Shown piece by piece: positions 42,898 to 60,586 of a stretch of 64,000 nt of DNA. Origin of the DNA: Sphingomonas sp. 67-36 (lineage in GTDB: Bacteria; Pseudomonadota; Alphaproteobacteria; Sphingomonadales; Sphingomonadaceae); contig MKSU01000010.1 of NCBI GenBank assembly GCA_001897375.1, forward strand, positions 86,312-150,311, given 5' to 3'. The number at the start of each line of letters is the position of its first letter. Position 1 is the first letter of the stretch. The notes under the pieces are model-generated. The model saw only the letters and a program-made list of their open reading frames with translations, was not told where the DNA came from and searched no databases. The position numbers and the translations under genes are program-made.

Positions 42898-45522
42898 TCA
42901 CGCTCCCGATCCCAACGCGAAATCCAGCGTGAACACCGCGCCACCGTCCTCGCGGTCGCTCGCGCTGATCCGCACGTTCATCACCTCCGCGAAGCTGCGC
43001 GCGATGGCGAGGCCGAGGCCGCTGCCGCCACGGCTGTCGGAGCCGGTGCCGCGCGCGAACGCCTCGAACAGCGCATCCGCGCCGCCCGGCGGCAGGCCCG
43101 GCCCTTGGTCGGCGATCGACAGCCGCACGCCGTGGGGCAACCGCTCGCCCGCGATCGTCACCTTGCCCGCGCCATGCGTCGCGGCATTGGTCAGCAGGTT
43201 GAGCAGGATATGGTGCAGCAATCGCGGATCGGCCGGCACCAGCGGCAGATCCGGCGGGACGCGGAAATCGAGGCGCGCGTCGGGCAGCAGGTCACGCAGG
43301 TCATGCACCGCGCCCGCCACCGCGTCGGTGAGGTCGACCGGCTCGATCGCCGCCGCCAGCGTGCCGCTGTCGATCCGCACCATCTCGATCAGGTTGGCGA
43401 GGAAGCGCCGCAGCCGCGCCAGCTCGCCGCGCGCGATCGCCAGCGCCGGCTCGCCCGGATGATTGACCGCGATCGCATCGAGCGCGCCGCCGACCGCCGT
43501 CAGCGGCGTGCGCAGGTCGTGCCCGATCGAGGAGAGCAGCGCGGAACGCAACCGGTCGCGCTCCTCGATCACCCGCACCTCGCGAAGCTGGTCCTCCAGT
43601 CGCAGCCGCTCATGTGCCAGCGCCGCCTGCCCCAGCAGGGTGGAGAGCAATGTCGCGCGCGTCGCGGGCACAGGTGGCCCGCCGTCGCCGCGCGCCAGCG
43701 CCACCACCGCGAGCGTGCCCAGCGTCGTGCGCAGCGGATGGAATTGCCAGTCCGCCGCGTTGAGCGTGCCGGTGTCGTATCCCGTCACCTCGCCCCGGCT
43801 CCACGCCCATTCCGCCGCCGCGCGATCGACCGGGCTGAGGTCCGGCAGGTCGGGCGGGCAGGCGGCGACGATCGCCAGCTTTCCCTCCCGCTGGACGAGC
43901 AGCAGCACCGACACGTCGAGCGTCCGCGCCAGCTCGTTGCACACCGTGTCGCTGGTCGATTGCCAGTCCGAGCAGCGCGCCAGCGCCTGGCCGAACGCCG
44001 CCACCGCCGCATTCTCCACCGCGCTCCGCGCGCCGATCGAGGCGCGGACGCGCAGCCGGTCGGCGAGGCTGGCGACGAACACCGCGATGCCGAGCAGCAC
44101 GATCACCGTCAGCACGCTTTCGGGATCGGCGATGGTGAAGGTATAGAGCGGCGGCAGGAAGAAGAAGTTATAGGCCAGCCCCGCCAGCGCCCCGGTCACG
44201 ATTCCCGGCCAGCGGCCGAACATCAGCGAGACCAGGATGACGGGGAGCAGATAGATCAGATCGATCGCCCCGGTGCCGATCAGCGGCTCCACCACCGTCG
44301 CGAGCGCGGTGGTGCCCGCCACCGCCACCGCGCCGGCGCCGATGCCGCCCCAGTCGATCCGCCGCCGCGCCCGCTCGGCGCGGGGCGCCGGCGGGGCGGT
44401 CTCGGACGGGATGACGTGGACCGCCAGCCCCTCGCTCTCGCGCAGTAATTGCTCGACCACCGAGCCGTGGCGCAGCTCGAACCACCAGCTTCGCCGCGAA
44501 CGGCCGAGCACGAGCTGGGTGGCGCGCATCCCGGCGATATGCGTCGTCAGCCCCTCGATCACCGTCTCCGCCGGCACGCTGGCGATCGTCGCGCCGAGGC
44601 TGGCGGCGAGTTGCAGCGTCTCGGCGACGCGCCGCCGCTCGTCCGGGCCGAAGCCGGCGGTGCGCGGCGTCTCGATATGCACCGCCTGCCACGGCGCGCG
44701 CAGGGCATCTGACAGGCGCTTGCCGGCGCGGACGAGGGCATCGCTGCCGGGCAATTCGCTCACCGCCACCAGCACGCGCTCGCCACCCGCAAAGGTGCCG
44801 GAGACGGCGTGGGCGTCGAGGAAATCGACCAGGCTGCGATCGACGCTCTGCGCGGCGCGGCGCAGCGCCATCTCGCGCAGGGCGGAGAGGTTCTCCTTGG
44901 AGAAGAAATGGCCGAGCGCCCGCGTCGCCTCGGCGGGGACATAGACCTTGCCCTCCTTCAGCCGTTCGATCAGCTCGTCGGGCGGCAGGTCCACCACCTC
45001 GATCTCCGCGTCCTCCAGCACATGATCGGGCACCGTCTCGCGCACGCGGACGCGGGTGAAGCTCGCCACCACGTCGTTGAGGCTCTCGACATGCTGGACG
45101 TTGAGCGTGGTGAGCACGTCGATCCCGGCGTCTAGCAATTCCTCCACGTCCTGCCAGCGCTTCGCGTGGCGGCAGCCCTCGGCATTGGTATGGGCAAGCT
45201 CGTCGACCAGCGCGAGCCGCGGCGCGCGGGCCAGCACCGCGTCGAGGTCCATCTCCTCCAGCACATGCCCGCGATGTTCGATCCGGCGGCGCGGGATCGT
45301 CGGCAGCGGCGCGGCGAGCCGCTCGGTATCCTGCCGCCCGTGCGTCTCGACCACTGCGATCGCCACGTCCACCCCGGCGGCAAGCCGTTCCGCGCCCTCG
45401 CGCAGCATCTCGAACGTCTTGCCGACGCCGGGCGCCGCGCCGAGGAAGATCTTCAGCCGCCCGCGCTTCTCCCGCGCGGCGGCGCGGAGCAGGGCTTCCG
45501 GCGATGGACGGCGATCGGTCAA
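42898..45522 (-). CDS. kdpD: Sensor histidine kinase KdpD
   Basis: 874 residues. Start is TTG 45522, supported by a strong AAGGAGGA five bases upstream. Order: KdpD N-terminal domain with Walker A GAAPGVGKTFEML (about 28-42), a universal-stress-protein-like domain (about 245-370), four membrane helices (about 395-495), a GAF-like segment, then the His-kinase domain with SSIGHDLRTPLTAVGG (His near 668) and ATPase N/G boxes (NLLTNAATHGAG, DQGPGLPPGG). Senses low potassium or turgor and phosphorylates KdpE. It is placed divergently from kdpFABC rather than downstream of kdpC as in enteric bacteria. Confidence 0.95.
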   Translation of the reverse strand: MTDRRPSPEALLRAAAREKRGRLKIFLGAAPGVGKTFEMLREGAERLAAGVDVAIAVVETHGRQDTERLAAPLPTIPRRRIEHRGHVLEEMDLDAVLARAPRLALVDELAHTNAEGCRHAKRWQDVEELLDAGIDVLTTLNVQHVESLNDVVASFTRVRVRETVPDHVLEDAEIEVVDLPPDELIERLKEGKVYVPAEATRALGHFFSKENLSALREMALRRAAQSVDRSLVDFLDAHAVSGTFAGGERVLVAVSELPGSDALVRAGKRLSDALRAPWQAVHIETPRTAGFGPDERRRVAETLQLAASLGATIASVPAETVIEGLTTHIAGMRATQLVLGRSRRSWWFELRHGSVVEQLLRESEGLAVHVIPSETAPPAPRAERARRRIDWGGIGAGAVAVAGTTALATVVEPLIGTGAIDLIYLLPVILVSLMFGRWPGIVTGALAGLAYNFFFLPPLYTFTIADPESVLTVIVLLGIAVFVASLADRLRVRASIGARSAVENAAVAAFGQALARCSDWQSTSDTVCNELARTLDVSVLLLVQREGKLAIVAACPPDLPDLSPVDRAAAEWAWSRGEVTGYDTGTLNAADWQFHPLRTTLGTLAVVALARGDGGPPVPATRATLLSTLLGQAALAHERLRLEDQLREVRVIEERDRLRSALLSSIGHDLRTPLTAVGGALDAIAVNHPGEPALAIARGELARLRRFLANLIEMVRIDSGTLAAAIEPVDLTDAVAGAVHDLRDLLPDARLDFRVPPDLPLVPADPRLLHHILLNLLTNAATHGAGKVTIAGERLPHGVRLSIADQGPGLPPGGADALFEAFARGTGSDSRGGSGLGLAIARSFAEVMNVRISASDREDGGAVFTLDFALGSGA

Positions 45523-45583
45523 CGCTTCCTCCTTGCCGGGGCGTTCGACATAACGCGGACCGGCGCAAGCGTCAGCCCGCGAT

Positions 45584-45635
45584 CTTTACGCGATCCTTAT
45601 GCGAAACGCCCATATTCGCCCGCGAAACCTTATGC
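45584..45635. promoter_or_regulatory. Candidate KdpE-binding direct repeats
   Basis: CTTTACGC (45584), CCTTATGC (45595) and CCTTATGC (45628) are direct repeats between kdpD and kdpF. The first two are 11 bp apart, the spacing typical of tandem OmpR-family half-sites, and they are T-rich like the E. coli KdpE site. Confidence 0.45.
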
Positions 45636-45689
45636 CCCGGCCTCCTAATTGAGCCGCCAAGCCGCATCCCGCGGCCGCGAGGCATATCC

Positions 45690-45773
45690 ATGTCCGACCT
45701 GATCTGGCTCGCCCTGCTCGGCGGCCTGTTCGCGCTGACGCTGGCGTTCGTGCGCCTGTGCGACGGGGCCTGA
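45690..45773 (+). CDS. 27-residue membrane peptide preceding kdpF
   Basis: A tiny frame, MSDLIWLALLGGLFALTLAF plus VRLCDGA, forming one transmembrane helix ending in a Cys-Asp. Similar short hydrophobic peptides ending VxxCDxx lie directly before kdpF or kdpA in other alphaproteobacteria, from memory. It is 4 bases upstream of kdpF. It may be a further small subunit or stabiliser of the Kdp complex. Confidence 0.6.
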   Translation: MSDLIWLALLGGLFALTLAFVRLCDGA

Positions 45774-45777
45774 CGCC

Positions 45778-45867
45778 ATGACGCTGCACCTCTGGCTCGC
45801 CGGGCTGACGGCGCTCGCCCTGCTCGGCTATCTCGTCGCCGTGCTCGTGCGGCCGGAGCGGTTCTGA
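45778..45867 (+). CDS. kdpF: KdpF, small stabilising subunit
   Basis: 29 residues: one transmembrane helix ([20 protein letters not shown]) ending in PERF, the signature end of KdpF. It sits one base before kdpA. KdpF helps stabilise the KdpABC complex in the membrane. Too short to be found by usual gene callers. Confidence 0.88.
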
Positions 45868-45868
45868 C

Positions 45869-47572
45869 ATGACCGTGCAGGGCTGGGCGCTGATCGCCCT
45901 TTTCGTCATCATCCTCGGCCTCGCCGCCAGGCCGGTCGGGCTGTGGCTGTTCGCGCTCTATGAGGGACGCCGCACGCCGCTCCACATCGTGCTCGGCCCG
46001 GTGGAGCGCGGCTTCTACCGCCTCGCCGGCGTCGATCCGGCCAAGGAGCAGGGCTGGCGCACCTACGCGCTGCACATGCTGCTGTTCCAGCTCGCCACGG
46101 CGCTGCTCACCTATCTGCTGCTCCGCGCGCAAGGCGCGTTGCCGCTCAACCAGCGCGGGCTGCCCGGCGTCGGCGCGGACGGGGCGATGAACGTCGCCAT
46201 CTCGTTCGTCACCAACACCAACTGGCAATGGTATACCGGCGAGGCGACGCTTTCGAACCTCAGCCAGATGCTCGCGCTGACGATCCACAATTTCCTCTCC
46301 GCCGCGACTGGCATCGCGGTCGCCTTCGCGCTGTTCCGTGGCTTCGCCCGGCGGGAGTGCGCGACGGTCGGCAATTTCTGGGCCGACATGACGCGGGTGA
46401 CGCTCTACCTGCTGCTGCCGATCTGCATCGCTTATGCGCTTTATCTGGTGTGGGCCGGCGTGCCGCAGACCTTCGCCGCTGCGATCGACGCGCATACGCT
46501 GGAGGGCGCCAAGCAGGTGATCGCGCTTGGCCCGGTCGCCAGCCAGGAGGCGATCAAGATGCTTGGCACCAATGGTGGCGGCTTCTTCAACGCCAATTCC
46601 GCGCATCCGTTCGAGAATCCGACGGCAATGACCAACCTCGTCCAGATGCTGTCGATCTTCCTGATCGGCATCGGCCTCACCTACACCTTCGGCAAGGCGG
46701 TGGGGGACACGCGGCAGGGCTGGGCGATCCTCGTCGCGATGACGATCCTGTTCCTCGCCGGCGTCGTGGTCGCCTATTGCATGGAGGCGCATTCCACGCC
46801 GCTGATGCACCGGCTGGGCCTCGACGGCGGCAACATGGAGGGCAAGGAGGTGCGCTTCGGCGTGGTCGGCTCCGCGCTGTTCGCGGTGGTGACGACGGCG
46901 GCCTCGTGCGGCGCGGTCAATGCGATGCACGACAGCTTCACCGCGCTCGGCGGGCTGATCCCGCTGTTCAACATGGAGCTGGGCGAGGTGGTGGTCGGCG
47001 GGGTCGGCGCGGGCATCTACGGCTTCCTGCTGTTCGCCATCCTCGCGGTGTTCGTCGCCGGGCTGATGGTCGGCCGCACGCCGGAATATGTCGGCAAGAA
47101 GATCGAGGCGCGCGAGGTGAAGCTGGCGGTGCTGGCGATCGCGGTGCTGCCGCTGATGATCCTCGGCGGCAGCGCGATCGCCGCCGTCACGCAAGCAGGG
47201 CTGGCCGGTCCGCTCAACAAGGGGCCGCACGGCTTCTCGGAGATCCTCTACGCCTTTTCCTCCGCCACCGCGAACAACGGCTCGGCCTTCGCGGGGCTGA
47301 GCGCGGGGACGCCGTTCTACAACGCGCTGCTCGGCGTCGCGATGTGGGTCGGGCGCTTCTTCATCATCGTGCCGGTGCTGGCGATCGCCGGCAGCCTCGC
47401 CGCGAAGAGGCGCACGCCGGCAGGTGCGGGTTCATTCCCCACCACCGGCGCCCTGTGGGTGGGGCTGCTCGTCGGGATCATCCTGATCGTCGGCGGCCTC
47501 ACCTTCCTGCCGGGCCTCGCGCTCGGGCCGGTCGCCGATCACCTCACGGCCGCCGCCGGCCAGCTTTTCTGA
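45869..47572 (+). CDS. kdpA: Potassium-transporting ATPase potassium-binding subunit KdpA
   Basis: 567-residue membrane subunit holding the K+ selectivity filter. Filter loops are visible: [57 protein letters not shown] and [12 protein letters not shown], the four pore-loop repeats. Length and motifs match the family. First large gene of kdpFABC, expressed when potassium is low. Confidence 0.97.
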
Positions 47573-47584
47573 AGGGCACCTGTC

Positions 47585-49612
47585 ATGGACACCGCAACCT
47601 CCATGTTCTCCCCGGCGCTCGTCGTGCCCGCGATCGGCGACGCCTTCCGCAAGCTCGATCCGCGCGCGCTGGTCAGGAACCCGGTGCTGTTCGTCACCGC
47701 CTGCGTCGCGCTGCTGCTCACCCTGTTCCTCGCGATCGGCGGCGAGCAGGTGTCGGCCGGCTTCCTCGCGCAGCTTATCGCGTGGCTGTGGCTGACCGTG
47801 CTGTTCGGCACCTTCGCCGAGGCGCTGGCGGAGGGGCGCGGACGCGCGCAGGCCGCCTCGCTGCGCGCCACCAAGTCGGAGCTGCGCGCGAAGCTGCTTT
47901 CCGGCGTCGGCGAGACATGGGAGATGGTCGCCGCCGCGCAGCTCGAAAAGGGCGAGCTGGTGCTGGTCGAGACCGGCGACCTGATCCCCGCCGACGGCGA
48001 GGTGGTGGAGGGCGTCGCCAGCGTCAACGAGGCGGCGATCACCGGCGAGAGCGCCCCCGTCATCCGCGAGGCGGGCGGCGACCGCTCCGCCGTCACCGCC
48101 GGCACGCGCGTCATCTCGGACCGGATCAAGGTGCGCGTCACCGCCGAGCCGGGGCACGGCTTTCTCGATCGCATGATCGCGCTGGTCGAGGGCGCGGAGC
48201 GGCAGAAGACACCGAACGAGGTGGCGCTGACCATCCTGCTCGTCGGCCTGACGATCATCTTCCTGATCGCGGTCGGCACCATCCCGAGCTTCGCGCATTA
48301 TGCTGGCGGCGCGGTGCCGGTGGCGATCCTCGCGGCGCTGCTCATCACGCTGATCCCCACGACGATCGCCGCGCTGCTTTCCGCGATCGGCATCGCGGGG
48401 ATGGATCGGCTGGTGCGGTTCAACGTGCTCGCCAAGTCCGGCCGCGCGGTGGAGGCGGCGGGCGATTGCGACGTGCTGCTGCTCGACAAGACCGGCACGA
48501 TCACGATCGGCGACCGGCAGGCGAGCGCCTTCGTGCCGCTGACCGGCATCGAGGAGCGCGCGCTCGCGGAAGCCGCGCTGCTCGCCAGCCTCGCCGACGA
48601 GACGCCGGAGGGCCGCTCGATCGTCGCCCTCGCGCGCGAGAAGCATGGCCTGTCGCAGACGCTGCCCGCCGATGCGGAGGCGATCCCCTTCACCGCGCAG
48701 ACGCGGCTTTCCGGCCTGAGCTTCGGCGGCGGCCTGATCCACAAGGGCGCGGTCGATTCGGTGCTGCGCGCGCATCCCGATCTCGACGCCACCGTCGCGG
48801 CGATCGAGCTTCGCCGCGCCACCGACGAGATCGCCCGCGCCGGGCAGACCCCGCTCGCGGTGGTGCGCGACGGACGGCTGCTGGGCGCGGTCGCGCTCAA
48901 GGACGTGGTGAAGGCCGGCGTGCGCGAGCGTTTCGCGGAGCTGCGCCGCATGGGCATCCGCACGGTGATGATCACCGGCGACAACCCGCTCACCGCCGCC
49001 GCCATCGCTGCCGAGGCCGGAGTGGACGATTTCCTCGCGGAGGCGACACCGGAAGACAAGCTCGCGCTGATCCGCCGCGAGCAGCAGGGCGGCAAGCTCG
49101 TCGCGATGTGCGGCGACGGCACCAACGACGCGCCCGCGCTCGCCCAGGCCGATGTCGGCGTAGCGATGAACACCGGCACGCAGGCCGCGCGCGAGGCGGG
49201 CAACATGGTTGATCTCGACAGCGACCCCACGAAGCTGATCGAGATCGTCGGGCTGGGCAAGCAATTGCTGATGACGCGCGGCGCGCTCACCACCTTCTCG
49301 GTCGCCAACGACGTCGCGAAATATTTCGCGATCATCCCGGCGATGTTCGTGGTGCTCTATCCCGGCCTCGCCGCGCTCAACGTGATGCACCTTTCCAGCC
49401 CGCGGAGCGCGATCCTGTCGGCGATCATCTTCAACGCCCTCATCATCCCGGCGCTGGTGCCGTTGGCGCTGCGCGGCGTGACGTACCGGCCGATGGGCGC
49501 GGGGCCGCTGCTCGCGCGCAACCTCGCCATCTACGGCATCGGCGGGCTGGTCGCGCCGTTCGCCGGCATCAAGCTGATCGACCTCGCGGTCAGCGCGCTC
49601 CATCTCGCCTGA
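47585..49612 (+). CDS. kdpB: Potassium-transporting ATPase ATP-binding subunit KdpB
   Basis: 675-residue P-type ATPase. Actuator motif [11 protein letters not shown], phosphorylation site [12 protein letters not shown] with Asp301, and hinge motif [18 protein letters not shown] are intact, as is the nucleotide-binding region. Couples ATP hydrolysis to K+ uptake through KdpA. 12 bases after kdpA and 12 before kdpC. Confidence 0.97.
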
Positions 49613-49624
49613 AGGGTTCGTCTC

Positions 49625-50212
49625 ATGCTCAACGATATCAGGTCCGGCCTTCGCCCGACGCTCGTCTTCACCCTGCTGTTCGCCGCCTTGCTCGGCCTCG
49701 CCTATCCGGCGCTGATCGCCGGGATCGGCCAGATCGTCTTCCCGTGGCAGGCGAACGGCAGCATCGTCCGGGATGCGCGCGGGCAGGCGATCGGCTCGGC
49801 GATCATCGGCCAGCAATTCGCCAGCCCGCGCTATTTCCACGGCCGCCCCTCCGCCGCCGGCAAGGGCTATGACCCGCTTGCCTCCTCCGGCTCGAACTAC
49901 GGCCCCGCCGCGAAACCACTCGCGGACCGGCTCAAGGGCGATCTTTCCGCAACCACCGCATCGCCAGACGCATTGGCTCCTCCTGCCGATCTGGTGACTG
50001 CCTCCGCCTCGGGGCTCGATCCCGATATCAGCCCCGAGGCGGCCTTGTATCAGGCACCGCGCGTCGCGGCCGCGCGGCATGTCGATCCGGCGACGGTTCG
50101 CGCTTTGGTCGATCGGCATATCGAGCGCCCGCTGCTCGGCTTCATCGGTGAGCCGCGCGTCAACGTGCTGGCGCTGAACCCCGCGCTCGACGCCGCCGCG
50201 CCGCGCCCGTAA
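49625..50212 (+). CDS. kdpC: Potassium-transporting ATPase subunit KdpC
   Basis: 195 residues. One N-terminal membrane helix (LVFTLLFAALLGLAYPALIA) and a periplasmic domain with GSAIIGQQFASPRYFHGRPS, ASSGSNYGP and VARHVDP-like VAAARHVDPATVRALVDRH. Stabilises the KdpAB interaction. Typical length. Confidence 0.95.
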   Translation: MLNDIRSGLRPTLVFTLLFAALLGLAYPALIAGIGQIVFPWQANGSIVRDARGQAIGSAIIGQQFASPRYFHGRPSAAGKGYDPLASSGSNYGPAAKPLADRLKGDLSATTASPDALAPPADLVTASASGLDPDISPEAALYQAPRVAAARHVDPATVRALVDRHIERPLLGFIGEPRVNVLALNPALDAAAPRP

Positions 50213-50216
50213 CAGG

Positions 50217-50945
50217 ATGCGGATGACGAATGCCGCCCGCGTCCTGCTGGTCGAGGATGATGCCGCGATCCGCCGCCTGCTCCATGCGGCGCTGACGCGC
50301 GCGGGCTATCGCGCCAGCCAGGCCGCGACGGCGCGCGAGGCGATGAGCGTCGTCGATATCGAGCGGCCCGATGCGGTGCTGCTCGATCTCGGCCTGCCGG
50401 ATCGCGACGGGCTGGAGTTGGTCCAGCTCATCAAAGCGCGGGGCGATGCGGTGCTGCTGGTCGTCTCCGCCCGCAACGAGACGGAGGACAAGGTCGCCGC
50501 GCTCGATCTGGGCGCGGACGATTATCTCACCAAGCCGTTCGACACCGAGGAGCTGCTCGCTCGCATCCGCACTGCGCTGCGCCACCGCCGCGCCGGCGCG
50601 GCGATCGACGAGGTGCTGGAGGCGGGGCCGGTCACGATCGACCTCGCGCATCGCCGCGTCGCCCGCGGTGGCGCGGATATCCACCTGACGCCGAAGGAAT
50701 ATGGCGTGCTGGCGGAGCTGGCGCGGCATCCCGACCGGGTGATCGGCCACGCGCAATTGCTGCGCAGCGTATGGGGACCGGCGCAGGAGGATCACGTCGA
50801 ATATCTCCGCATCGTGATCCGCGCGCTGAGGCACAAGCTGGAGGCCGATCCCGCGCAGCCGCGCCTGATCGTCAACGAACTGGGGATCGGATATCGATTG
50901 GTCACAACCGGTTCGATGGCGAGACGCGACCAACCCGGTCGATAG
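50217..50945 (+). CDS. kdpE: Response regulator KdpE
   Basis: 242 residues; ATG 50217, with a second ATG at 50223. Receiver domain with LVEDD acid pocket, phospho-acceptor Asp57 in VLLDLGLPD and LTKPF switch Lys; OmpR-type winged helix (about 135-230) containing LTPKEYGVLAELARHPDRV and IVIRALRHKLEADP. Partner of KdpD, here separated from it by the kdpFABC genes. It has a short extra C-terminal tail (SMARRDQPGR). Confidence 0.93.
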   Translation: MRMTNAARVLLVEDDAAIRRLLHAALTRAGYRASQAATAREAMSVVDIERPDAVLLDLGLPDRDGLELVQLIKARGDAVLLVVSARNETEDKVAALDLGADDYLTKPFDTEELLARIRTALRHRRAGAAIDEVLEAGPVTIDLAHRRVARGGADIHLTPKEYGVLAELARHPDRVIGHAQLLRSVWGPAQEDHVEYLRIVIRALRHKLEADPAQPRLIVNELGIGYRLVTTGSMARRDQPGR

Positions 50946-51100: not shown

Positions 51101-51955
51101 ATGGGCAAATCGAAGCTCGTCGTTGGCGCCGCCGCGGCTGTCGCGCTCGGAGCGGCCATTCCCGCGCTCGCGCAAACCAGTTCAGGCGGCTCGACCTCCA
51201 GCGCCGGCGGCTCGAACGTGACGGGGGCATCGGGCAATCATAGCGACACGTCGGTCAGCACCAGCAATTCGACCGACACCAACAGCACGACGCTGACCTT
51301 CTCCCCGAGCAAGACCAGCAACAACACCAAGAACCTGACGTGGAGCAGCAGCAGCAGCGACAGTTCGCAGCACACGAAAAATGTGACTGCGGACAGCAAC
51401 AACAGCGACAGCTCCCAGAACACCAAGAATATCGGCAGCTACAACACCAAGAATGTGACGGCCGACAGCAACAACACCGATAATTCGCAGCGCACCAAGA
51501 ATGTCGCTCTTGGCAGCTACAACACGAAGAACGTGACGGCTGACAGCAACAATACCGACAATTCTCAGCGCACTAAAACGGTGGCTGTCGGCAGCTACAA
51601 CACCGACAATTCGCAACGCACCAAGACGCTGACGCTGGACAGCAACAATTCGGATAGCTCCCAGCACAACAAGGCGATCGCGATCGGCAGCTACAACACC
51701 GATAATTCCCAGCGGAACGGCAACATCCATCTCGTCGCCGATCAATCGCTCGATGCATCGGTGAGCAGCCACGGCAAGCTGAACTTCAGCGGCCGCAGCG
51801 CGACCTATAACAGCGGCGCGAATTCCATCGGTGGCAGCGCGTTCGCGGCCTATTCCGGTATCCTGAACCAGGGCTGGAACACCGGCAACAACAGCGCGTC
51901 CCAGGCTGCGACCAACATCGCGGCGCAAGGCACCACCAGCTTCGCGACGCATTGA
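51101..51955 (+). CDS. Repeat-rich exported protein, putative amyloid-like fibre subunit
   Basis: 284 residues from ATG 51101 with AAAGGA upstream. Signal peptide about 1-25 (ending PALAQ). Then a Ser/Gly/Thr-rich stretch; residues about 83-205 form 16-residue repeats of form S-[NY]-N-[ST]-D-[NS]-S-Q-x-x-K-x-[VI]-x-x-[GD]; the C-terminal part is Asn/Gln/Ser/Gly-rich (NQGWNTGNNSASQAATNIAA). Composition (Asn, Ser, Thr, Asp, Lys; no Cys) suits a beta-solenoid or functional amyloid. Neighbouring C39 peptidase and coiled-coil barrel match the gene content of Pseudomonas Fap, where the fibre is FapC. No sequence match to FapC is claimed. A strong terminator follows. Confidence 0.65.
   Translation: MGKSKLVVGAAAAVALGAAIPALAQTSSGGSTSSAGGSNVTGASGNHSDTSVSTSNSTDTNSTTLTFSPSKTSNNTKNLTWSSSSSDSSQHTKNVTADSNNSDSSQNTKNIGSYNTKNVTADSNNTDNSQRTKNVALGSYNTKNVTADSNNTDNSQRTKTVAVGSYNTDNSQRTKTLTLDSNNSDSSQHNKAIAIGSYNTDNSQRNGNIHLVADQSLDASVSSHGKLNFSGRSATYNSGANSIGGSAFAAYSGILNQGWNTGNNSASQAATNIAAQGTTSFATH
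51347..51716 (+). repeat. Sixteen-codon tandem repeats in fibre-like gene
   Basis: About seven complete 16-residue units plus two shortened 10-residue units (SYNTKNVTAD) that lack the D-x-S-Q-x-x segment. Units alternate SNN and SYN starts; several are near-identical at DNA level, indicating recent duplication. Confidence 0.8.
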
Positions 51956-51965
51956 TGCCCCGCCT

Positions 51966-51997
51966 GCCGGGCGGGTTTTCCCGCCCGGCGGTTTTTT
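51966..51997 (+). terminator. Rho-independent terminator after fibre-like gene
   Basis: Stem GCCGGGCGGG / CCCGCCCGGC (10 bp, perfect), TTTT loop, then GG and a run of six T. It lies between the repeat protein and the next co-directional gene, so it should make the fibre transcript dominant with limited read-through. Confidence 0.85.
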
Positions 51998-52028
51998 CGT
52001 TGCAAGCGCGGATGCAAGGAGACTCGTG

Positions 52029-52409
52029 ATGTCGATCTCTTCCCTCCGGCGCCGTATCGCGACCGGCTCCGCCGCCGCCCTCGCGTCGCTTGTCGCCAAT
52101 ACGGCTTTCGCCCAGACGGGCGCGCCGCCGCCGGCTCCTCCGGTCGAGACCGCGCGGCCGCCGGTCGTCGCGCTCGATGATGCGCAGCTGGGGCAGGAGC
52201 GTGGCGGGCAGGCGATCGTCGTCGGCAACCAGACGCTCAACAGCAGCCTCACCGGCAACACGATCGCCGGCAACTATACCGCCGGGGCGATCACCCTTTC
52301 GGACAATGCCTTCGCCAATTTCAACGGCATGGGCAATGTCGTGATCAATTCCGGCGCTCAGGCCAATCTGCAAAGCGCGATGAACCTCACCGTCAATCTG
52401 GGGAACTGA
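52029..52409 (+). CDS. Exported 126-residue protein with double-glycine leader motif
   Basis: ATG 52029 (a GTG three bases earlier is also in frame). Sec signal about 1-28 (ending NTAFA). After a Pro-rich stretch, ALDDAQLGQERGG places Leu49 at -12, Leu54 at -7 and Gly59-Gly60 at -2/-1, the canonical C39-peptidase leader pattern. The remainder (about 66 residues) is Asn/Gly/Ala-rich: VVGNQTLNSSLTGNTIAGN, FNGMGNVVINSGAQANLQ. It may be a nucleator or minor fibre component processed by the adjacent C39 peptidase. In Fap terms it occupies the place of FapB or FapA. Confidence 0.65.
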   Translation: MSISSLRRRIATGSAAALASLVANTAFAQTGAPPPAPPVETARPPVVALDDAQLGQERGGQAIVVGNQTLNSSLTGNTIAGNYTAGAITLSDNAFANFNGMGNVVINSGAQANLQSAMNLTVNLGN

Positions 52410-52411
52410 TC

Positions 52412-53188
52412 ATGGGCAGCCGGAGTGCCGCCCCGCTTCACTGGCTCGCGGCGGCGATCGCGTTTTCGAGCATGGCCGCGATCGCCGCCGCGGCACAGAC
52501 GCCGCCGCTCGCGCGGATGCCGGTCGATGCGCCCGGACGCGCGGCGGGCTTCACCGTGCGCGTGCGGAGCTGGGCCGAGATTCCGTTCCGCACGATCGTG
52601 CGCCAGCGTTACGATTACAGCTGCGGCTCGGCGGCGGTCGCCACGCTGCTCACCTATCAATATGGCACGCCCACCGACGAAACCCAGCCGTTCAAGGCGA
52701 TGTACGAGAAAGGCGATCAGACGAAGATCCGCGAGAAGGGCTTCTCGCTGCTCGACATGAAGAATTATCTTCTCGCGCGCGGGTTCGGCGCGCAGGGCTA
52801 CCGGCTCGGGATCGAGGACATGCGCGCATTGGGCAAGCCGATGATCGCGCTGATAAACGTGCGCGGCTACACGCATTTCGTCGTCGTCAAGGGCGCGCGC
52901 GGCGGGCGCGTGCTGATCGGCGATCCGGCGCGCGGGCTGCTCAAGGTGCCCGATGCCGAGTTCGCGAAGATGTGGAGCGGGATCGCGCTGATCGTCACCG
53001 ATCCGCCGACCGGGGTGAGCGGTGCGTTCAACCTCGCGCGGGACTGGGATCCATGGTCGACCTCGCCGACGCGGATCTTCCAGGGCGAGCGCAGCATCAC
53101 CGCGACCACCGACAACCTGCCGCCGATCTACCAGATCCAGCAGCAGATCCTGCCCAACATCCGCGTCGGAGGCGTAGGGGTGCCATGA
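52412..53188 (+). CDS. Stand-alone exported C39 peptidase (FapD-like)
   Basis: 258 residues with N-terminal signal (AIAFSSMAAIAAAAQ). Peptidase C39 core: Gln65 and Cys71 in RQRYDYSCGSAAVATLL, His155 in GYTHFVVVKG, Asp171 in LIGDPARG, the full catalytic set. There is no ABC transporter or membrane domain, unlike bacteriocin C39 exporters; this arrangement is that of FapD, essential for Fap fibre export. It starts 2 bases after the preceding gene and overlaps the next by 4. Its probable substrates are the flanking GG-leader proteins. Confidence 0.85.
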   Translation: MGSRSAAPLHWLAAAIAFSSMAAIAAAAQTPPLARMPVDAPGRAAGFTVRVRSWAEIPFRTIVRQRYDYSCGSAAVATLLTYQYGTPTDETQPFKAMYEKGDQTKIREKGFSLLDMKNYLLARGFGAQGYRLGIEDMRALGKPMIALINVRGYTHFVVVKGARGGRVLIGDPARGLLKVPDAEFAKMWSGIALIVTDPPTGVSGAFNLARDWDPWSTSPTRIFQGERSITATTDNLPPIYQIQQQILPNIRVGGVGVP

Positions 53189-53766
53189 GCCGTCCGGCCT
53201 TATATCGCGCGCTGCGCATCGCGGCGCTGGCGCCGGCGGTGTGGATCGTCCCAGCCGCCGCCGATGAACTCCCTGTCGCCGCGCAGATCGCGCCGCATAT
53301 GGTCGCCATGACCGACGAGGAGATGGCCGAAGCGCATGGCGGTTTCGACTGGGGCGGGATGAACATCACCTTCGGCGCCGACGTACAGACCTATCTCAAC
53401 GGCCAGCTCGCCTTGCAGACGGTGGTCAACTGGACCGCCAACGGCGCGACGACGCAGACGATCGTCGGCAGCCAGCTTATGCTCGCGGACGTCGCTTCTG
53501 CGAGCGGGACGGGAGGCGGCATCGCCATTCCGGCGAACCTCTCGAACAGCGCCGTCTATCTCGCCAACGCCGGGCAGACCGCGCTGATCCAGAACACCAA
53601 CGGCGCGTTGCAGAACGTGCTGGTCAACGCGATGGCCAATCTCAACGCGGTGCAGCAGACCAACGCCACCGTCACGCTCGGCAATTATGCGGCCTTCGCG
53701 GCGACGCTACGCACCGGGGCGCTCAACATGGGGCTGGGGCGCGAGATCGCGACCTTCTCGCATTGA
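53185..53766 (+). CDS. Exported 193-residue protein with double-glycine leader motif (FapE-like position)
   Basis: ATG overlaps the C39 gene stop. Signal peptide about 1-26 (ending VPAAA). AMTDEEMAEAHGG places Met42 at -12, Glu46 at -8, Met47 at -7 and Gly52-Gly53 at -2/-1, a close match to the C39 leader consensus. The mature part starts FDWGGMNITFGADVQTYL and is rich in Asn, Gln, Ala and Thr (LQNVLVNAMANLNAVQQTN). Probably a second fibre or accessory subunit. Convergent with the barrel gene, 13 bases away. Confidence 0.65.
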   Translation: MSRPALYRALRIAALAPAVWIVPAAADELPVAAQIAPHMVAMTDEEMAEAHGGFDWGGMNITFGADVQTYLNGQLALQTVVNWTANGATTQTIVGSQLMLADVASASGTGGGIAIPANLSNSAVYLANAGQTALIQNTNGALQNVLVNAMANLNAVQQTNATVTLGNYAAFAATLRTGALNMGLGREIATFSH

Positions 53767-53779
53767 AGGAATGCGGCGT

Positions 53780-55102
53780 TCAGAACGTGAAGGGCAGGCG
53801 CAGCGTCATCGCCACGCCCGGCGCATCCTGCGTCACCCCGAACTGGAACGCGAGCGTCACCGATTGCCGCTGGTTGACGCGATAGGACATGCCGAGATCG
53901 AGCGTGCCGACCTGAAGCGTCGAGGAATCCTGGAAACCGCCGTTCAGCTCGGTCCGCGTCGGCATGATATAGGTGTGGCTGTAGCCGAGCGAGAAGGAGA
54001 AGCGCGGGTTGATCGCGAAGCCGAAGCCGATGTTCGCGGTGATCGCGCCGCCCGGCCGGACATGGCCGATCAGCGTGCCGTTGACGGTGCGGTCGATATC
54101 GCGCGCGAACTGATAGAGATAGGATATTCCTCCATAGATGACCGCTGGATCGGACGGCAGCAGCACCGTCAGCCCCGGCTGCACGCCCCAGAATCCCGAT
54201 CCGGTCGCCAGCCCATGCGCGATGCCGAATTCGTCATAGGCGATCGAGAACGGGCTGACGCCGGTATCGCTCTTCACGCGCAGCCCGGCGATGAAGATCG
54301 GCGCCTCGGGATTGAGCGGGGCGTTGATCTGCCAGCGCAGCGCGCCTTCGATGTCGCCGATCGCCCGCGCATGCAGGTCGAAGCCCTCGGTCACGGTGCC
54401 GTCGCGTACCTGTGACAGATGGATGCTGTCGGTGCGGATCATCGCCGGGATCATCAATTCGCCCTCGAGCCGGCTGGTGAAGCCGTGCCAGATCGTCAGC
54501 GCGTCGATCGTCGTGTTGCGATCGGCGGTCGACGCCTGGATCGAACCGATCTGCAACCCCGGCACCAGCTCGATCCCGGCGAACACCAGCCGGTCGTTGG
54601 CGGAGCGGATATAGGTCAGCGAGGCCTGCACGGTGGTCTTTCCGGCAGGGGTGAGGACGCCCTGGCCCTGCGGCACGGCCTGCGTCTTGTCCGCGATATC
54701 GGGCTTGGCCGCCTGCGCGTCGCCCACTGTTCCTTGCGGCGGGGCGGAATCGGTCTGGTTCGCCGGTGCCCCGGTTTGCGGGCCGATGCCGGCGGCGCGC
54801 GCCGCGGCGAGATCCGCGGCGGTTTCGCGGCGCAGCGCCACGATCTCCTCGCGATCCGCCGCGATCTGCTTCTGCTGGGCGTCGATCTGCGCCTGTTGCG
54901 CGGCGACTCTCGCGGTGAGATCGGCGAGCTGCCGCTCGATCGAGGGAGCGGCTTGCGCCGGGGCTGCGGCCTGCATCGAGGCGGCTGGCAGCGCCGAAGC
55001 TGGCGCCGCTTGCGGGGGCGCCGGATCGTCGGCCGCCCACGCCGTGCCGGGAAGGACGGTCAGGCAGCTGGCGCAGAGCCAGCGGGTCGTTGCGTGGGAC
55101 AT
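53780..55102 (-). CDS. Outer-membrane barrel with N-terminal coiled coil (FapF-like)
   Basis: 440 residues. Signal peptide about 1-23 (ending GTAWA), an Ala/Pro-rich stretch, a coiled coil about 54-100 (SIERQLADLTARVAAQQAQI and following heptads), a flexible linker, then a barrel of about 290 residues with alternating strands ending RLPFTF. Pseudomonas FapF, the pore for Fap fibres, has the same layout of coiled coil, linker and barrel and the same length. Start ATG overlaps by one base the stop of the upstream Crp gene (TGATG). I infer it exports the fibre subunits of the opposite-strand operon. Confidence 0.7.
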   Translation of the reverse strand: MSHATTRWLCASCLTVLPGTAWAADDPAPPQAAPASALPAASMQAAAPAQAAPSIERQLADLTARVAAQQAQIDAQQKQIAADREEIVALRRETAADLAAARAAGIGPQTGAPANQTDSAPPQGTVGDAQAAKPDIADKTQAVPQGQGVLTPAGKTTVQASLTYIRSANDRLVFAGIELVPGLQIGSIQASTADRNTTIDALTIWHGFTSRLEGELMIPAMIRTDSIHLSQVRDGTVTEGFDLHARAIGDIEGALRWQINAPLNPEAPIFIAGLRVKSDTGVSPFSIAYDEFGIAHGLATGSGFWGVQPGLTVLLPSDPAVIYGGISYLYQFARDIDRTVNGTLIGHVRPGGAITANIGFGFAINPRFSFSLGYSHTYIMPTRTELNGGFQDSSTLQVGTLDLGMSYRVNQRQSVTLAFQFGVTQDAPGVAMTLRLPFTF

Positions 55103-55737
55103 CAGTGGGTTATCCCTGGAGAAAAGGAAGGCAGGTGGTTTTCGGAAGCGAACAGCGGGCCTTCGTTGGCGATTTCGCGCAGGCGATCGGTTTGCGTGAT
55201 CGTGAAGACGCGCCCACGCCCCTGCCGCAGCACGCCGCGCCGCCGGAACTCGGTGAGCGTGCGGCTGATGGTGTGCAGCGTCAGCCCGAGATGATCCGCA
55301 AGGTCGGTGAGCGAAAGCGGCAGGCGAAACTCGGTGCCCAGCCGGCGCCCGGCGAGATCGAGCAGGAACGCCGCGACCCGCGCCCGCGCATGCCGCCGCG
55401 AGCGGATCGCGAGCACGAAATAGGTCTGGCGCAGCGCCAGCGAGAGCAGCCGGATCTTTCGCGGCCCGTCGTTCTCCTGCTCGGCCGACGGAGATTCATA
55501 TACCATCACCGACGTCGCGGCCTCTGCCGTCAGCATCTGGTGATCGTCGATCAGCCCGACGATATCGCCGGGAAAGGCAAAGCCGACGATCACACGCTGC
55601 CCATCTGCGAGGTAGAGGCAGAGTCGCACTATGCCTTCCTCGATCCTGAGCAGGCCATGAGTGGGATCGCCGGGGGCATAAACCACCGCATCCTTCGGAA
55701 GGATCCGGCGTCGACCGGACGGATGCGTCATCACCAT
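55102..55737 (-). CDS. Crp/Fnr-family regulator coupled to the barrel gene
   Basis: 211 residues. An N-terminal cyclic-nucleotide-binding-like barrel (about 15-115, VVYAPGDPTHGLLRIEEGIV, FAFPGDIVGLIDD) and a C-terminal HTH (about 150-195, LSLTDLADHLGLTLHTISRT). It lacks the N-terminal Cys cluster of oxygen-sensing FNR and has FixK-like features. Translational coupling to the barrel gene suggests it controls the secretion locus; signal unknown. Confidence 0.85.
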   Translation of the reverse strand: MVMTHPSGRRRILPKDAVVYAPGDPTHGLLRIEEGIVRLCLYLADGQRVIVGFAFPGDIVGLIDDHQMLTAEAATSVMVYESPSAEQENDGPRKIRLLSLALRQTYFVLAIRSRRHARARVAAFLLDLAGRRLGTEFRLPLSLTDLADHLGLTLHTISRTLTEFRRRGVLRQGRGRVFTITQTDRLREIANEGPLFASENHLPSFSPGITH

Positions 55738-55954: not shown

Positions 55955-56266
55955 ATGTCCCTGCTCAGCGACCAAGCGCTTGGCGTTTGCCTTACGCCTC
56001 GTGAACTCGAGGTGCTCGCACTCGTCGCCGGGGGGCTTTCGGCGAAGGAGATCGCGCTGCACATCGCGATCGCGCCACGCACGGTGGAACGTCACATCGA
56101 CAATGCCCGGCTGAAGATGCGCGCGCGGAACCGCACCCACCTTTTCACGCGCGCGATCGCCAGCGGCCTGCTCGATGCGCCGGTCCGCGACGAGAAGGAT
56201 GTCCCGCTGTCCGCGCCGTTCGCCGGCCAGGCGCACGGCGGGATGGAGGCGATCCTGCTGCTCTGA
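55955..56266 (+). CDS. Stand-alone LuxR-type HTH regulator
   Basis: 103 residues from ATG 55955, preceded by ACAGGAGGTG. Essentially only a GerE/LuxR DNA-binding domain: LTPRELEVLALVAGGLSAKE, then IALHIAIAPRTVERHIDNAR and LKMRARNRTHL. No receiver or ligand domain, so it must be regulated by expression level or partners. It lies in the divergent region next to the Crp-barrel operon, whose regulators it may join. Confidence 0.85.
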   Translation: MSLLSDQALGVCLTPRELEVLALVAGGLSAKEIALHIAIAPRTVERHIDNARLKMRARNRTHLFTRAIASGLLDAPVRDEKDVPLSAPFAGQAHGGMEAILLL

Positions 56267-57224: not shown

Positions 57225-57704
57225 ATGAATCAGGAATCGGGACGCAAGAGCGAAGGGGAGGGCGGCGCCGGGCCGCTTGACCTGCGCATGTGGGTGCGCC
57301 TGCTCGGCTGCGCCAAGATCATCGAGAAGCAGCTTCGCCGCAATTTCCAGGATCAGTTCGACACCACCCTCCCGCGCTTCGACGTGATGGCGGCGCTGGA
57401 CCGCGCGGTGGAGGGGCTGACGATGGGGGCGCTGTCGCGCGCGCTGCTGGTGTCGAACGGCAACGTCACCGCGATCGTGCGGCAATTGCAGGATCTGGGC
57501 ATGGTCGTGTCGCGCACCGATCCGGCGGACGGCCGCTCGGCGATCGTCGCGCTGACGCCGCGCGGCAAGGCGCATTTCGCGACGCTGGCCGCGGCGCATC
57601 ATCAGTGGGTGCGCGCGGCGCTGAAGGACTTTCCGCCCGACCGGCAGGAACAATTGCTGACGCTGTTAACAGACCTGCGCCGCTCGCTCGCGGGAGGGGA
57701 ATGA
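57225..57704 (+). CDS. MarR-family regulator of aromatic acyl-CoA genes
   Basis: 159 residues from ATG 57225; the open frame reaches 57066 but the longer N-terminus is not family-like. Winged helix with LTMGALSRALLVSNGNVTAI and wing RTDPADGRSAIVALTPRG. It is followed at once (GTG, 1 base after the stop) by a thioesterase and then the anthraniloyl-CoA-type operon. MarR proteins such as BadR, CouR and HcaR respond to aromatic CoA thioesters, so similar control is likely here. Confidence 0.85.
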   Translation: MNQESGRKSEGEGGAGPLDLRMWVRLLGCAKIIEKQLRRNFQDQFDTTLPRFDVMAALDRAVEGLTMGALSRALLVSNGNVTAIVRQLQDLGMVVSRTDPADGRSAIVALTPRGKAHFATLAAAHHQWVRAALKDFPPDRQEQLLTLLTDLRRSLAGGE

Positions 57705-58255: not shown

Positions 58256-60586
58256 ATGAAGGTGGCATGCGTCGGTGGCGGCCCGGCCGGGCTGTATTTC
58301 GCGATCTCGATGATGCTGCGCGATCCCTCGCACGACATCACCGTGTTCGAGCGCAACCGGCCCGGCGACACGTTCGGCTGGGGCGTGGTGTTCTCCGACC
58401 AGACGATGGAGCACCTTCAGGAGAACGATCCGGTCAGCGCGCAGGCGATGATCGACGAGCTGGCGCATTGGGATGATATCGAGGTCCATATCGAGGACGG
58501 CGACCGCAACGTCACGAACCGGTCGAGCGGTCACGGCTTCATCGGCATCGGCCGCAAGCGCCTGCTCAACATCCTTCAGGACCGTGCCCGCGAACTCGGC
58601 GTCAGGCTGGAGTTCGAGGCGGAGGTCGAGCCGGACGATGCTTTCCTCGATCAATATGATCTGGTGATCGCCGCCGATGGCCTCAACAGCAAGCTGCGCA
58701 AGCGGTTCGAGACGGATTTCCAGCTCGACCTTGACGTCAAACGCAACAAGTTCGTGTGGCTAGGCACGCACCAGCGGTTCGACGCGTTCAACTTTATCTT
58801 CAAGAACACGCGCTTCGGCTGGATCTGGGCGCACGCCTATCAGTTCGACAAGGACACCGCGACCTTCATCGTCGAGTGCGAGCCGGAAACCTATGACCGC
58901 GCCGGCTTCGCGCATCTGACGCAGGAGGAATCCTGCCGGCTGTGCGAGGAGATCTTCGCCGACCATCTCGGCGGGCACGAGCTGATGACCAACGCGAAGC
59001 ACATTCGCGGCTCGGCGTGGATCAACTTCCCGCGCATCATCTGCCGCCAGTGGAGCCATCGCAACATCGTCCTCCTGGGCGACGCGGCGCATACCGCGCA
59101 TTTCTCGATCGGCTCCGGCACCAAGCTGGCGCTGGAGGATGCGATCAAGCTCGCTGAGGTGATGAACCGGCCGGGGATCGGCAAGGATGTGGCGGGGGGG
59201 GACGCGCTGCAAAAGGGCCTCGTTGAATATCAGGATGAGCGGCAGCTCGAGGTCGTCAAGCTCCAGAACGCGGCGCGCAACTCGACCGAATGGTTCGAAC
59301 ACCTCGACCGCTACCTGAAGATGGACCCGATGCAGTTCACCTACACGCTGCTGACGCGCAGCCAGCGGGTGAGCCACGAGAACCTGCGGCTGCGCGATCC
59401 GGCATGGCTGGCGAAGCTGGAGCGGAGCCTGACCGAAGCCGCGCTCGGCGAGACAGTGGAGCAGCCGCTGCCGCCGATGTTCCTGCCGTTCCGCCTGCGC
59501 GGGATGACGATGCGCAACCGCGTGGTCATGTCGCCGATGGCGATGTATTCCGCCGAGGATGGCGTGCCCAACGACTTCCATCTCGTCCATTACGGCGCGC
59601 GCGCGCTGGGCGGGGCAGGGCTGATCGTCACCGAGATGACCTGCGTGTCGCCCGAAGGCCGCATCACGCCGGGCTGCACTGGCATGTGGAACGAGGAGCA
59701 GGTGGAGGCGTGGAAGCGCATCACCGATTTCGTCCACACCCAGCCCGGCGCGCGCATCTGCATGCAGCTCGGCCACAGCGGCTCCAAGGGTTCGACCCGC
59801 GTGGCATGGGAGGGGATGGACAAGCCGCTGGAGAACGGCAACTGGCAGGTAGTCGCGCCGTCCAACGTGCCGTGGACGGCGGAGAACCAGGTGCCGCTTG
59901 CGCTCGATCGCGTGGGGATGGACCGGATCCGCGATGAGTTCGTCACGGCGACGCAACTCGCGGACGCGGCCGGGTTCGACATGGTGGAGCTGCATTGCGG
60001 CCACGGCTATCTCCTGTCCGCCTTCATCAGCCCGACGCAGAACCGGCGCACCGACGATTACGGCGGCTCGCTCGCCAACCGGCTGCGCTATCCGCTGGAG
60101 ATATTCCGGGCGATGCGCGCGGGGTGGCCGCAGGACAAGCCGATGTCGGTGCGCATCTCCGCGCACGACTGGGTGGGCGAGGACGGCGTGACCCCCGACG
60201 AGGCGGTGGAGATCGCGCGCGCCTTCAGTGAGGCGGGCGTGGACCTGATCGACGTGTCCTCGGGACAGGTCACCAAGGCCGAGAAGCCGGTCTATGGCCG
60301 CATGTTCCAGACGCCCTTCTCGGACCAGATCCGCAACGAGCTGGGCGTGGCGACGATGGCGGTCGGCAACATCTACGAGGTCGATCACGTCAATTCGATC
60401 ATCGCCGCCGGCCGCGCGGACCTTTGTGCGATGGGCCGCCCGCACCAGATGGACCCGAACTTCACCATCCACGCGGCGGCGGTGCACCAGCTAGATAAGG
60501 CGCCGGTGCCGGTGCAATACGCCAGCGGCTATTTCCAGCTCAAGCTCAACACCGCGCGGGCCGGACAGATGGTGACGATCAAGTGA
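58256..60586 (+). CDS. 2-aminobenzoyl-CoA (anthraniloyl-CoA) monooxygenase/reductase-type bifunctional enzyme
   Basis: 776 residues, two fused flavoenzymes. Residues about 1-390: FAD monooxygenase with [16 protein letters not shown] and [20 protein letters not shown]. Residues about 400-770: old-yellow-enzyme (NADH:flavin oxidoreductase) domain with [31 protein letters not shown] and [14 protein letters not shown]. This fusion is known in 2-aminobenzoyl-CoA monooxygenase/reductase and in the related salicylyl-CoA 5-hydroxylase type. It hydroxylates and then reduces the aromatic ring of the CoA thioester. Salicylate is an alternative substrate, but the RidA gene downstream favours an amino compound. 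Clear GAGGA site seven bases before ATG. Confidence 0.9.

Follow-up and report, generated by a model that had tools for sequence, protein, structure and literature searches.

An Export Locus Related to Fap

We analysed a 64,000-nucleotide stretch of the Sphingomonas sp. 67-36 genome (contig MKSU01000010.1, positions 86,312 to 150,311; hereafter the window) and found in it a real, conserved Fap-like export locus, which belongs to a sister class of the classical functional-amyloid (Fap) systems. The original prediction, made from the letters alone, had placed a group of linked genes at positions 51101..55737 and read them as a reproduction of the Fap layout. The open reading frames (ORFs) are indeed present at these coordinates, and the reading holds for the FapD- and FapF-type genes with their linked partners, although the gene set is not that of fapABCDEF. 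The genes are the following.

51101-51955, plus strand: A, an exported repeat protein and fibre candidate of 284 amino acids (ORF; tandem repeats; leads the conserved gene order in relatives)
52029-52409, plus strand: B, a small exported partner of 126 amino acids (ORF; conserved before the C39 gene)
52412-53188, plus strand: FapD-like C39 peptidase of 258 amino acids (profile matches; catalytic residues)
53185-53766, plus strand: D, a second exported partner of 193 amino acids, at the place of FapE (ORF; conserved after the C39 gene)
53780-55102, minus strand: FapF-like outer-membrane barrel protein of 440 amino acids with an N-terminal coiled-coil-like stretch (structure and family matches)
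55102-55737, minus strand: Crp/Fnr-type regulator of 211 amino acids (HTH_Crp_2 at 5e-18; a Crp-type gene stands beside the barrel gene in relatives)

The start of the D gene overlaps the end of the peptidase gene by ATGA and, on the minus strand, the Crp/Fnr gene overlaps the start of the FapF-like gene. By eye, signal-like sequences open A, B, the peptidase, D and the barrel protein. The ratios of non-synonymous to synonymous substitution rates between the window and L044, its nearest relative with the locus, are 0.19 for A, 0.27 for B, 0.22 for the peptidase, 0.24 for D and 0.08 for the FapF-like gene (the last from 282 codons, where the L044 contig stops). These values indicate purifying selection, and thus selected genes rather than chance ORFs.

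The Peptidase and the Barrel

The hidden Markov model searches that had been proposed for the locus returned the FapD and FapF models, whereas A, B and D reached no curated cut-off and found no credible match in Pfam or NCBIfam, so that FapA, often absent in Fap, was not recognised among them. The peptidase matches the NCBIfam FapD model (E-value 2.3e-38) and Pfam Peptidase_C39 (1.3e-21), and the predicted relation to FapD is borne out. The same is true of the relation to FapF, as the barrel protein matches the NCBIfam FapF model (1.1e-32) and, over residues 152-440, the solved FapF structures (5.5e-25), the next chain in the PDB following at 0.74. The possibility of an ordinary porin from the phenol-degradation family was set aside, because Phenol_MetA_deg reached just 2.8e-05 in Pfam and, apart from FapF, no PDB barrel lay below an E-value of 1. 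The NCBIfam models of the Acinetobacter Fil proteins rank next, with FilB on the peptidase at 5.1e-35 and FilC on the barrel at 7.4e-12; both stay under their curated cut-offs (121.2 versus 475 bits and 45.3 versus 630 bits, respectively).

Residues Q65, C71, H155 and D171 of the peptidase, which we take to be the expected catalytic residues, are invariant in two alignments of relatives, in 24/24 and 109/109 sequences, the larger set having been compared after seven distant loci (L059 and L071-L076) and four redundant ones were put aside. The protein is the sole Peptidase_C39 match in its genome, and a Pfam search found no ATP-binding cassette (ABC) domain on its 258 residues. Like FapD, it presumably resides in the periplasm.

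Two Classes of Loci and Their Distribution

Fifty-nine neighbourhoods were fetched, making 60 with the window; in L111, L114, L120 and L121, neither a C39 nor a FapF gene was called. The named loci are the best 80 of at least 588 when ranked by similarity to an alignment made up mostly of the sister class, which is over-represented among them. No C39 gene was called in 11 of the 80, and 4 that were redundant with the training set were removed. The gene caller misplaces some starts, and it missed B in L124, A in L130 and the C39 gene in L103.

Two gene orders emerge. In the classical group, FapB- and FapC-like genes precede the peptidase gene; in the window-type group, a repeat protein is followed by a short B, the peptidase and D, with the barrel gene often on the opposite strand. 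The classical label was given to 13 loci by gene order and FapB/FapC-like repeats, before any tree was made. A quick maximum-likelihood tree of 109 peptidases then separated these 13 and four others, which are distant alphaproteobacterial peptidases, from 92 that include the window, with a support of 100. The window peptidase thus lies outside the classical FapD clade in this tree, which fits the suggestion in the original prediction that the same export machinery serves a divergent or new class. Three genomes carry both classes, G182 (L060 and L061), G371 (L103 and L104) and G420 (L105 and L119), where L103, whose peptidase was not called, counts as classical on account of its barrel and a FapB-like gene.

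Within the window side, the window and L044 cluster with L123, L117, L130, L124, L125, L128 and L129 (support 83), all of them Sphingomonadales where named. The predicted linkage of the genes stands: of the 69 named loci with a called C39 gene, 59 also have a FapF-type gene. Counting the window's own genome each time, a relative of the barrel is found in 17/61 near genomes and the peptidase in 50/295 genomes of the genus, while the FapD model matches in 23/289 genomes drawn from the class and the FapF model in 37/398 from the phylum, seven of these over the cut-off.

Passages of a 2013 survey (PMC3792158) confine Fap to Beta-, Gamma- and Deltaproteobacteria, and the original prediction had presented the locus as an alphaproteobacterial case of a system mainly described elsewhere. 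The setting is correct, but the window side of the tree also includes, besides Novosphingobium, Sphingopyxis and Asticcacaulis, genomes of Beta-, Gamma- and deltaproteobacterial groups (Cupriavidus, Lysobacter, Halomonas, Vibrio and Geotalea) and a Nitrospira metagenome-assembled genome. Nor is classical Fap foreign to Alphaproteobacteria, since classical-type clusters were found there in L060 and, within the family of the window, in L062 and L063. In its section on such pairs, a 2018 review (PMC6173800) describes homologues of fapD and fapF that co-localise in five further phyla, and infers that FapD and FapF interact; the pairing itself is therefore not new. Those pairs very likely include loci of the window class, but the section describes neither the partner genes nor the leader treated below.

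Two variants of the layout deserve mention. L113 (1988-7370) carries the A-B-C39-D block twice in tandem; B, C39 and D have the same lengths and printed ends in both copies, and A is slightly different. L071-L076 are stripped-down alphaproteobacterial loci with a C39 peptidase and a weakly FapF-like barrel; in several of them, a related motif such as LSDTQMDSVVGG occurs in a small exported protein, and no repeat protein was called between these genes.

Double-Glycine Leaders of the Small Partners

Double-glycine leaders have hydrophobic residues 12 and 7 positions before the cut and Gly-Gly at their end. B and D each contain a motif that fits this consensus, placed between the signal-like sequence and the rest of the protein.

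52173..52208, plus strand: double-glycine leader motif of B, LDDAQLGQERGG (motif model, rank 1 of 344 ORFs)
53308..53343, plus strand: double-glycine leader motif of D, MTDEEMAEAHGG (motif model, rank 2 of 344 ORFs)

The original prediction had correctly recognised small exported partners on both sides of the C39 gene, but it missed the leaders of both. The leader model comprises 12 motif positions and was built from the genes directly before and after the peptidase gene; a gene is marked when it scores at least 10. The initial model marks 70/94 C39-flanking genes, a count obtained on its own training genes, versus 3/542 others, and these three are themselves partner genes (a second D in L068, a gene at the place of FapA beside a classical cluster in L105, and a B in L047). 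Independent checks were made separately. When trained on D-position genes only, the model marked 10/49 B-position genes, and when trained on B-position genes only, it marked 26/45 D-position genes; in both cases it marked none of 539 others, a set without the three partner genes. Among the named loci, 50/61 genes after the peptidase and 32/62 before it were marked, versus one of 558 others, which comes from L176, a locus with a second peptidase gene. A model made without the window and L044 scored B at 13.7 and D at 12.3, the next of the 344 window ORFs reaching 7.7; the leader of D was scored here within a longer ORF (52972-53766). The later model outperformed an earlier regular expression, which in its strict form found 26/134 partner genes under 400 amino acids and 6/334 others, and in its loose form 70/134 and 31/334.

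In the AlphaFold2 model of D (pLDDT 57, low confidence), a short helix at residues 44-50 stands just before Gly-Gly and is followed by strands. The leader is not named in the titles or abstract openings of the open-licence literature that was searched.

The Repeat Protein and Its C-Terminal Module

A is the candidate for the fibre subunit, and two parts of it can be distinguished.

51395..51715, plus strand: repeat array, mostly 16-residue units with shorter 14- and 10-residue ones
51821..51952, plus strand: C-terminal module, weakly FapB/FapC-repeat-like (hhalign E 3.7e-4)

The tandem repeats have a period of 78 bases (scores 227 and 255), and the central array is rich in Ser, Asn and Thr. 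The A protein of L044 is shorter (229 amino acids), and that of L117 is without most of the units. According to passages of PMC12392863, FapC repeats are 38-39 residues long. Repeats of this FapC/FapB type, usually three in number, were not found in A, which has the 16-residue units instead. The original statement that the fibre repeats do not resemble those of FapC holds, but the C-terminal module of the protein is weakly Fap-repeat-like at the profile level.

The iterated C-terminal search drifts, and a separate profile comparison was used in place of its E-values. In this comparison, the C-termini of A-type proteins, a set that includes rows from L059 and L073 that are not fibre proteins, matched those of classical FapB/FapC at E 3.7e-4 (hhalign probability 37; reversed control 0.44). 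The B-type C-termini did so at 4.3e-4 (probability 34; reversed control 0.24), and the A and B C-termini matched each other at 6.8e-5 (probability 64). A profile of classical FapB/FapC found 38 genes at E <0.01, six of them from the class of the window; 37 lie in clusters by rule and the remaining one is the FapB-like gene of L103. These comparisons suggest that the fibre-subunit kinship with classical FapB/FapC is likely, if weak.

At the position of the fibre candidate, L066 (8004-14825) has an ORF of 2273 amino acids, far longer than A of the window.

Regulators and the Hairpin Between A and B

Two further features accompany the locus.

55955-56266, plus strand: small LuxR-type (GerE) regulator of about 103 amino acids (GerE at 1.5e-15 on a longer reading from 55859)
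51964..51991, plus strand: terminator-like hairpin in the A-B gap, with 12 pairs and then T6 (hairpin scan, folding)

A gene of Crp/Fnr size adjoins the barrel gene in 7/7 sphingomonad relatives (five tested, five confirmed), and a small LuxR-type gene lies near the locus in 6/7 (four tested, four confirmed). The RNA of the A-B hairpin folds better than most of its shuffles (z -2.39, 5/200 as good). In the relatives, hairpins followed by T residues, at -15 kcal/mol or better, occur in 28/82 A-B gaps, 7/82 B-peptidase gaps and 28/257 other same-strand gaps. Such a hairpin could give A an excess over its partners, as a modest and not universal trait.

A Proposed Mechanism and Its Competitors

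We consider it probable that the locus serves fibre biogenesis in the manner of Fap, as a sister class in which the peptidase cuts the leader. In this mechanism, A, B, the peptidase, D and the barrel protein would cross the inner membrane by Sec. A periplasmic FapD-type C39 peptidase would then recognise the short Gly-Gly leader on B and D and cut after it, and after this cut B and D may become able to engage the FapF-type pore, through which A, B and D would be exported. Outside the cell, B, with its one Fap-like C-terminal module, could seed the fibre, and D could anchor or chaperone a fibre built mainly of A, putatively an amyloid. The hairpin after A might keep A in excess, and the Crp/Fnr and LuxR-type regulators may control the locus.

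Measured against the FapB/FapC repeats and the gene set that define Fap, the locus falls outside the system, but it most likely works like Fap. With Pseudomonas Fap (fapABCDEF) it shares a FapD-type C39 peptidase (periplasmic in Pseudomonas and presumably so here), a FapF-type barrel, an exported partner that carries the same leader motif and is encoded behind the peptidase gene, and repeat subunits with a similar C-terminal module. It differs in that its peptidase falls in a separate clade, its leader ends in G-G while the classical motif ends in G-R/K, a short leader-bearing B precedes the peptidase, the body of the candidate fibre consists of 16-residue units, FapA, FapB and FapC are not recognisable, and regulators of the Crp/Fnr and LuxR types are present. 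The locus also supplies fibre candidates that combine other repeats with a related export machinery, a natural comparison for the study of exporter recognition.

Several observations weigh against this interpretation. The matches to FapD (131.7 bits, curated cut-off 330) and FapF (113.4 bits, curated cut-off 700) are far below the thresholds of the families. The hhalign probabilities that relate the A/B module to FapB/FapC are low (34-37), and the classical FapB/FapC profile gives B of the window just E 0.38 and does not list A, which had no entry of its own in the searched set and contributed its C-terminus to the A profile only. AlphaFold2 gave an uninformative model of A (pLDDT 35). The leader is missed in 30/62 B-position and 11/61 D-position genes of the named loci, some of these misses stemming from wrong gene starts, and related loci are not independent of one another. 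As for the hairpin, the two terminator-like sites of the region do not exceed the number in shuffles (mean 3.7), and just 28 of the 82 A-B gaps have such a structure.

Another reading, which we regard as unlikely, is a surface system that forms no amyloid, in which A would leave the cell by the same machinery and act as an adhesin or a pilus-like surface protein. Such a role is implied by the name "putative pilus system" given to the Acinetobacter Fil models, the Fil models likewise describe a C39 peptidase plus a barrel, FilB matches the peptidase nearly as well as FapD does, and the central repeats of A are not Fap repeats. However, by the family models the barrel is far closer to FapF than to FilC, and the C-termini of A and B are weakly Fap-repeat-like.

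Classical FapE and the Predicted Target of FapD

The leader also bears on classical Fap. Passages of PMC5557850 state that FapD acts in the periplasm and needs its catalytic cysteine, and that the Fap proteins are without canonical C39 sites. The same source reports that FapE alone showed complete N-terminal processing, with no FapE peptides from about the first 70 residues, a span longer than the leader alone. The target of FapD was called unclear there, in 2017, and undetermined in passages of the 2018 review (PMC6173800), and a December 2025 paper (PMC12822426) states, in the passage concerned, that FapD is just "thought" to process FapE and FapF.

Among genes that follow the peptidase and score above 8, the motif closes with R or K in 14/14 genes of classical loci, which are FapE by position, and with G in 27/27 others. 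As the same leader, with a Gly-Arg or Gly-Lys end, is present in classical FapE, FapE is a predicted target of FapD. Both partners exceed a score of 8 in 23 non-classical loci, and in ten of these a B with a G-R or G-K end is paired with a D ending in G-G; such mixed endings in one locus suggest that one peptidase accepts both. D has the place and the leader motif of FapE; hhalign relates the full proteins, signal sequences included, with a probability of 95 and finds no similarity between the mature parts (0.1), indicating that the leader is the part kept by both classes.

The peptidases themselves differ close to the catalytic cysteine. Tyr67 is Y in 81 and F in 12 of 95 sister-class sequences and T in 12/14 classical ones, and Ser73 is conserved in 88/95 versus Ala in 14/14; further positions also separate the classes. 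As judged from the alignment, these two may be specificity positions, which we offer as a lead only. Taken together, we lean towards a second widespread Fap-type class whose periplasmic C39 peptidase would strip two small subunits of their double-glycine leaders, while FapD would cut FapE at Gly-Arg/Lys and the changes Tyr67 to Thr and Ser73 to Ala would accompany a switch in specificity. The novel part of our finding is the leader plus its prediction for FapD. The catalytic cysteine of FapD is needed for Fap secretion, and the plain leader of the sister class points to a possible target of FapD in the classical system as well.

The leader might instead be a docking tag for the peptidase or the barrel, or FapD might cut FapF instead, but we find either proposal improbable. 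Arg or Lys before a cut is not the usual C39 signal, which counts in favour of a docking tag; the motif of the sister class, however, ends in Gly-Gly, the C39 cut signal, in 27/27 D-position genes. Cleavage of FapF is raised in a passage of PMC5557850, but in the published data given there it was FapE alone that lost its whole N-terminus.

A bacteriocin or signal-peptide maturation locus, with B and D as double-glycine peptides and the C39 protein as maturase, was set aside as very improbable: the leaders are of the double-glycine type and the peptidase resembles the C39 domain of the PCAT bacteriocin exporters (6mpz, 4.9e-10), but unlike these it is free-standing, opens with a signal-like sequence, has no ABC domain and has no second Peptidase_C39 match beside it in the genome, and signal-like sequences precede the leaders, with a FapF-type barrel and a repeat protein linked to them.

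The proteins at the place of FapA in L098, L099, L100, L102, L103 and L105 have a fainter related motif, for example LGDADFARVSGG and LSDRDIGGISSG, with scores of 1 to 6 except in L105 (12.7). Going by this motif, FapA may be a second target of FapD, again as a lead only.

Flanking Genes

On one side, the locus is flanked by a kdp potassium-uptake cluster (42898-50945), in which kdpA, kdpB, kdpC and the gene of a KdpE-like regulator are all on the plus strand (45869-50945) and the gene of a KdpD-like sensor is set apart and divergent on the minus strand (42898-45522). On the other side lies a gene for a bifunctional salicylyl-CoA 5-hydroxylase/oxidoreductase (58256-60586; NCBIfam, over its cut-off), adjoined by small genes at 57225 and 57706 that have no NCBIfam match at 1e-20.

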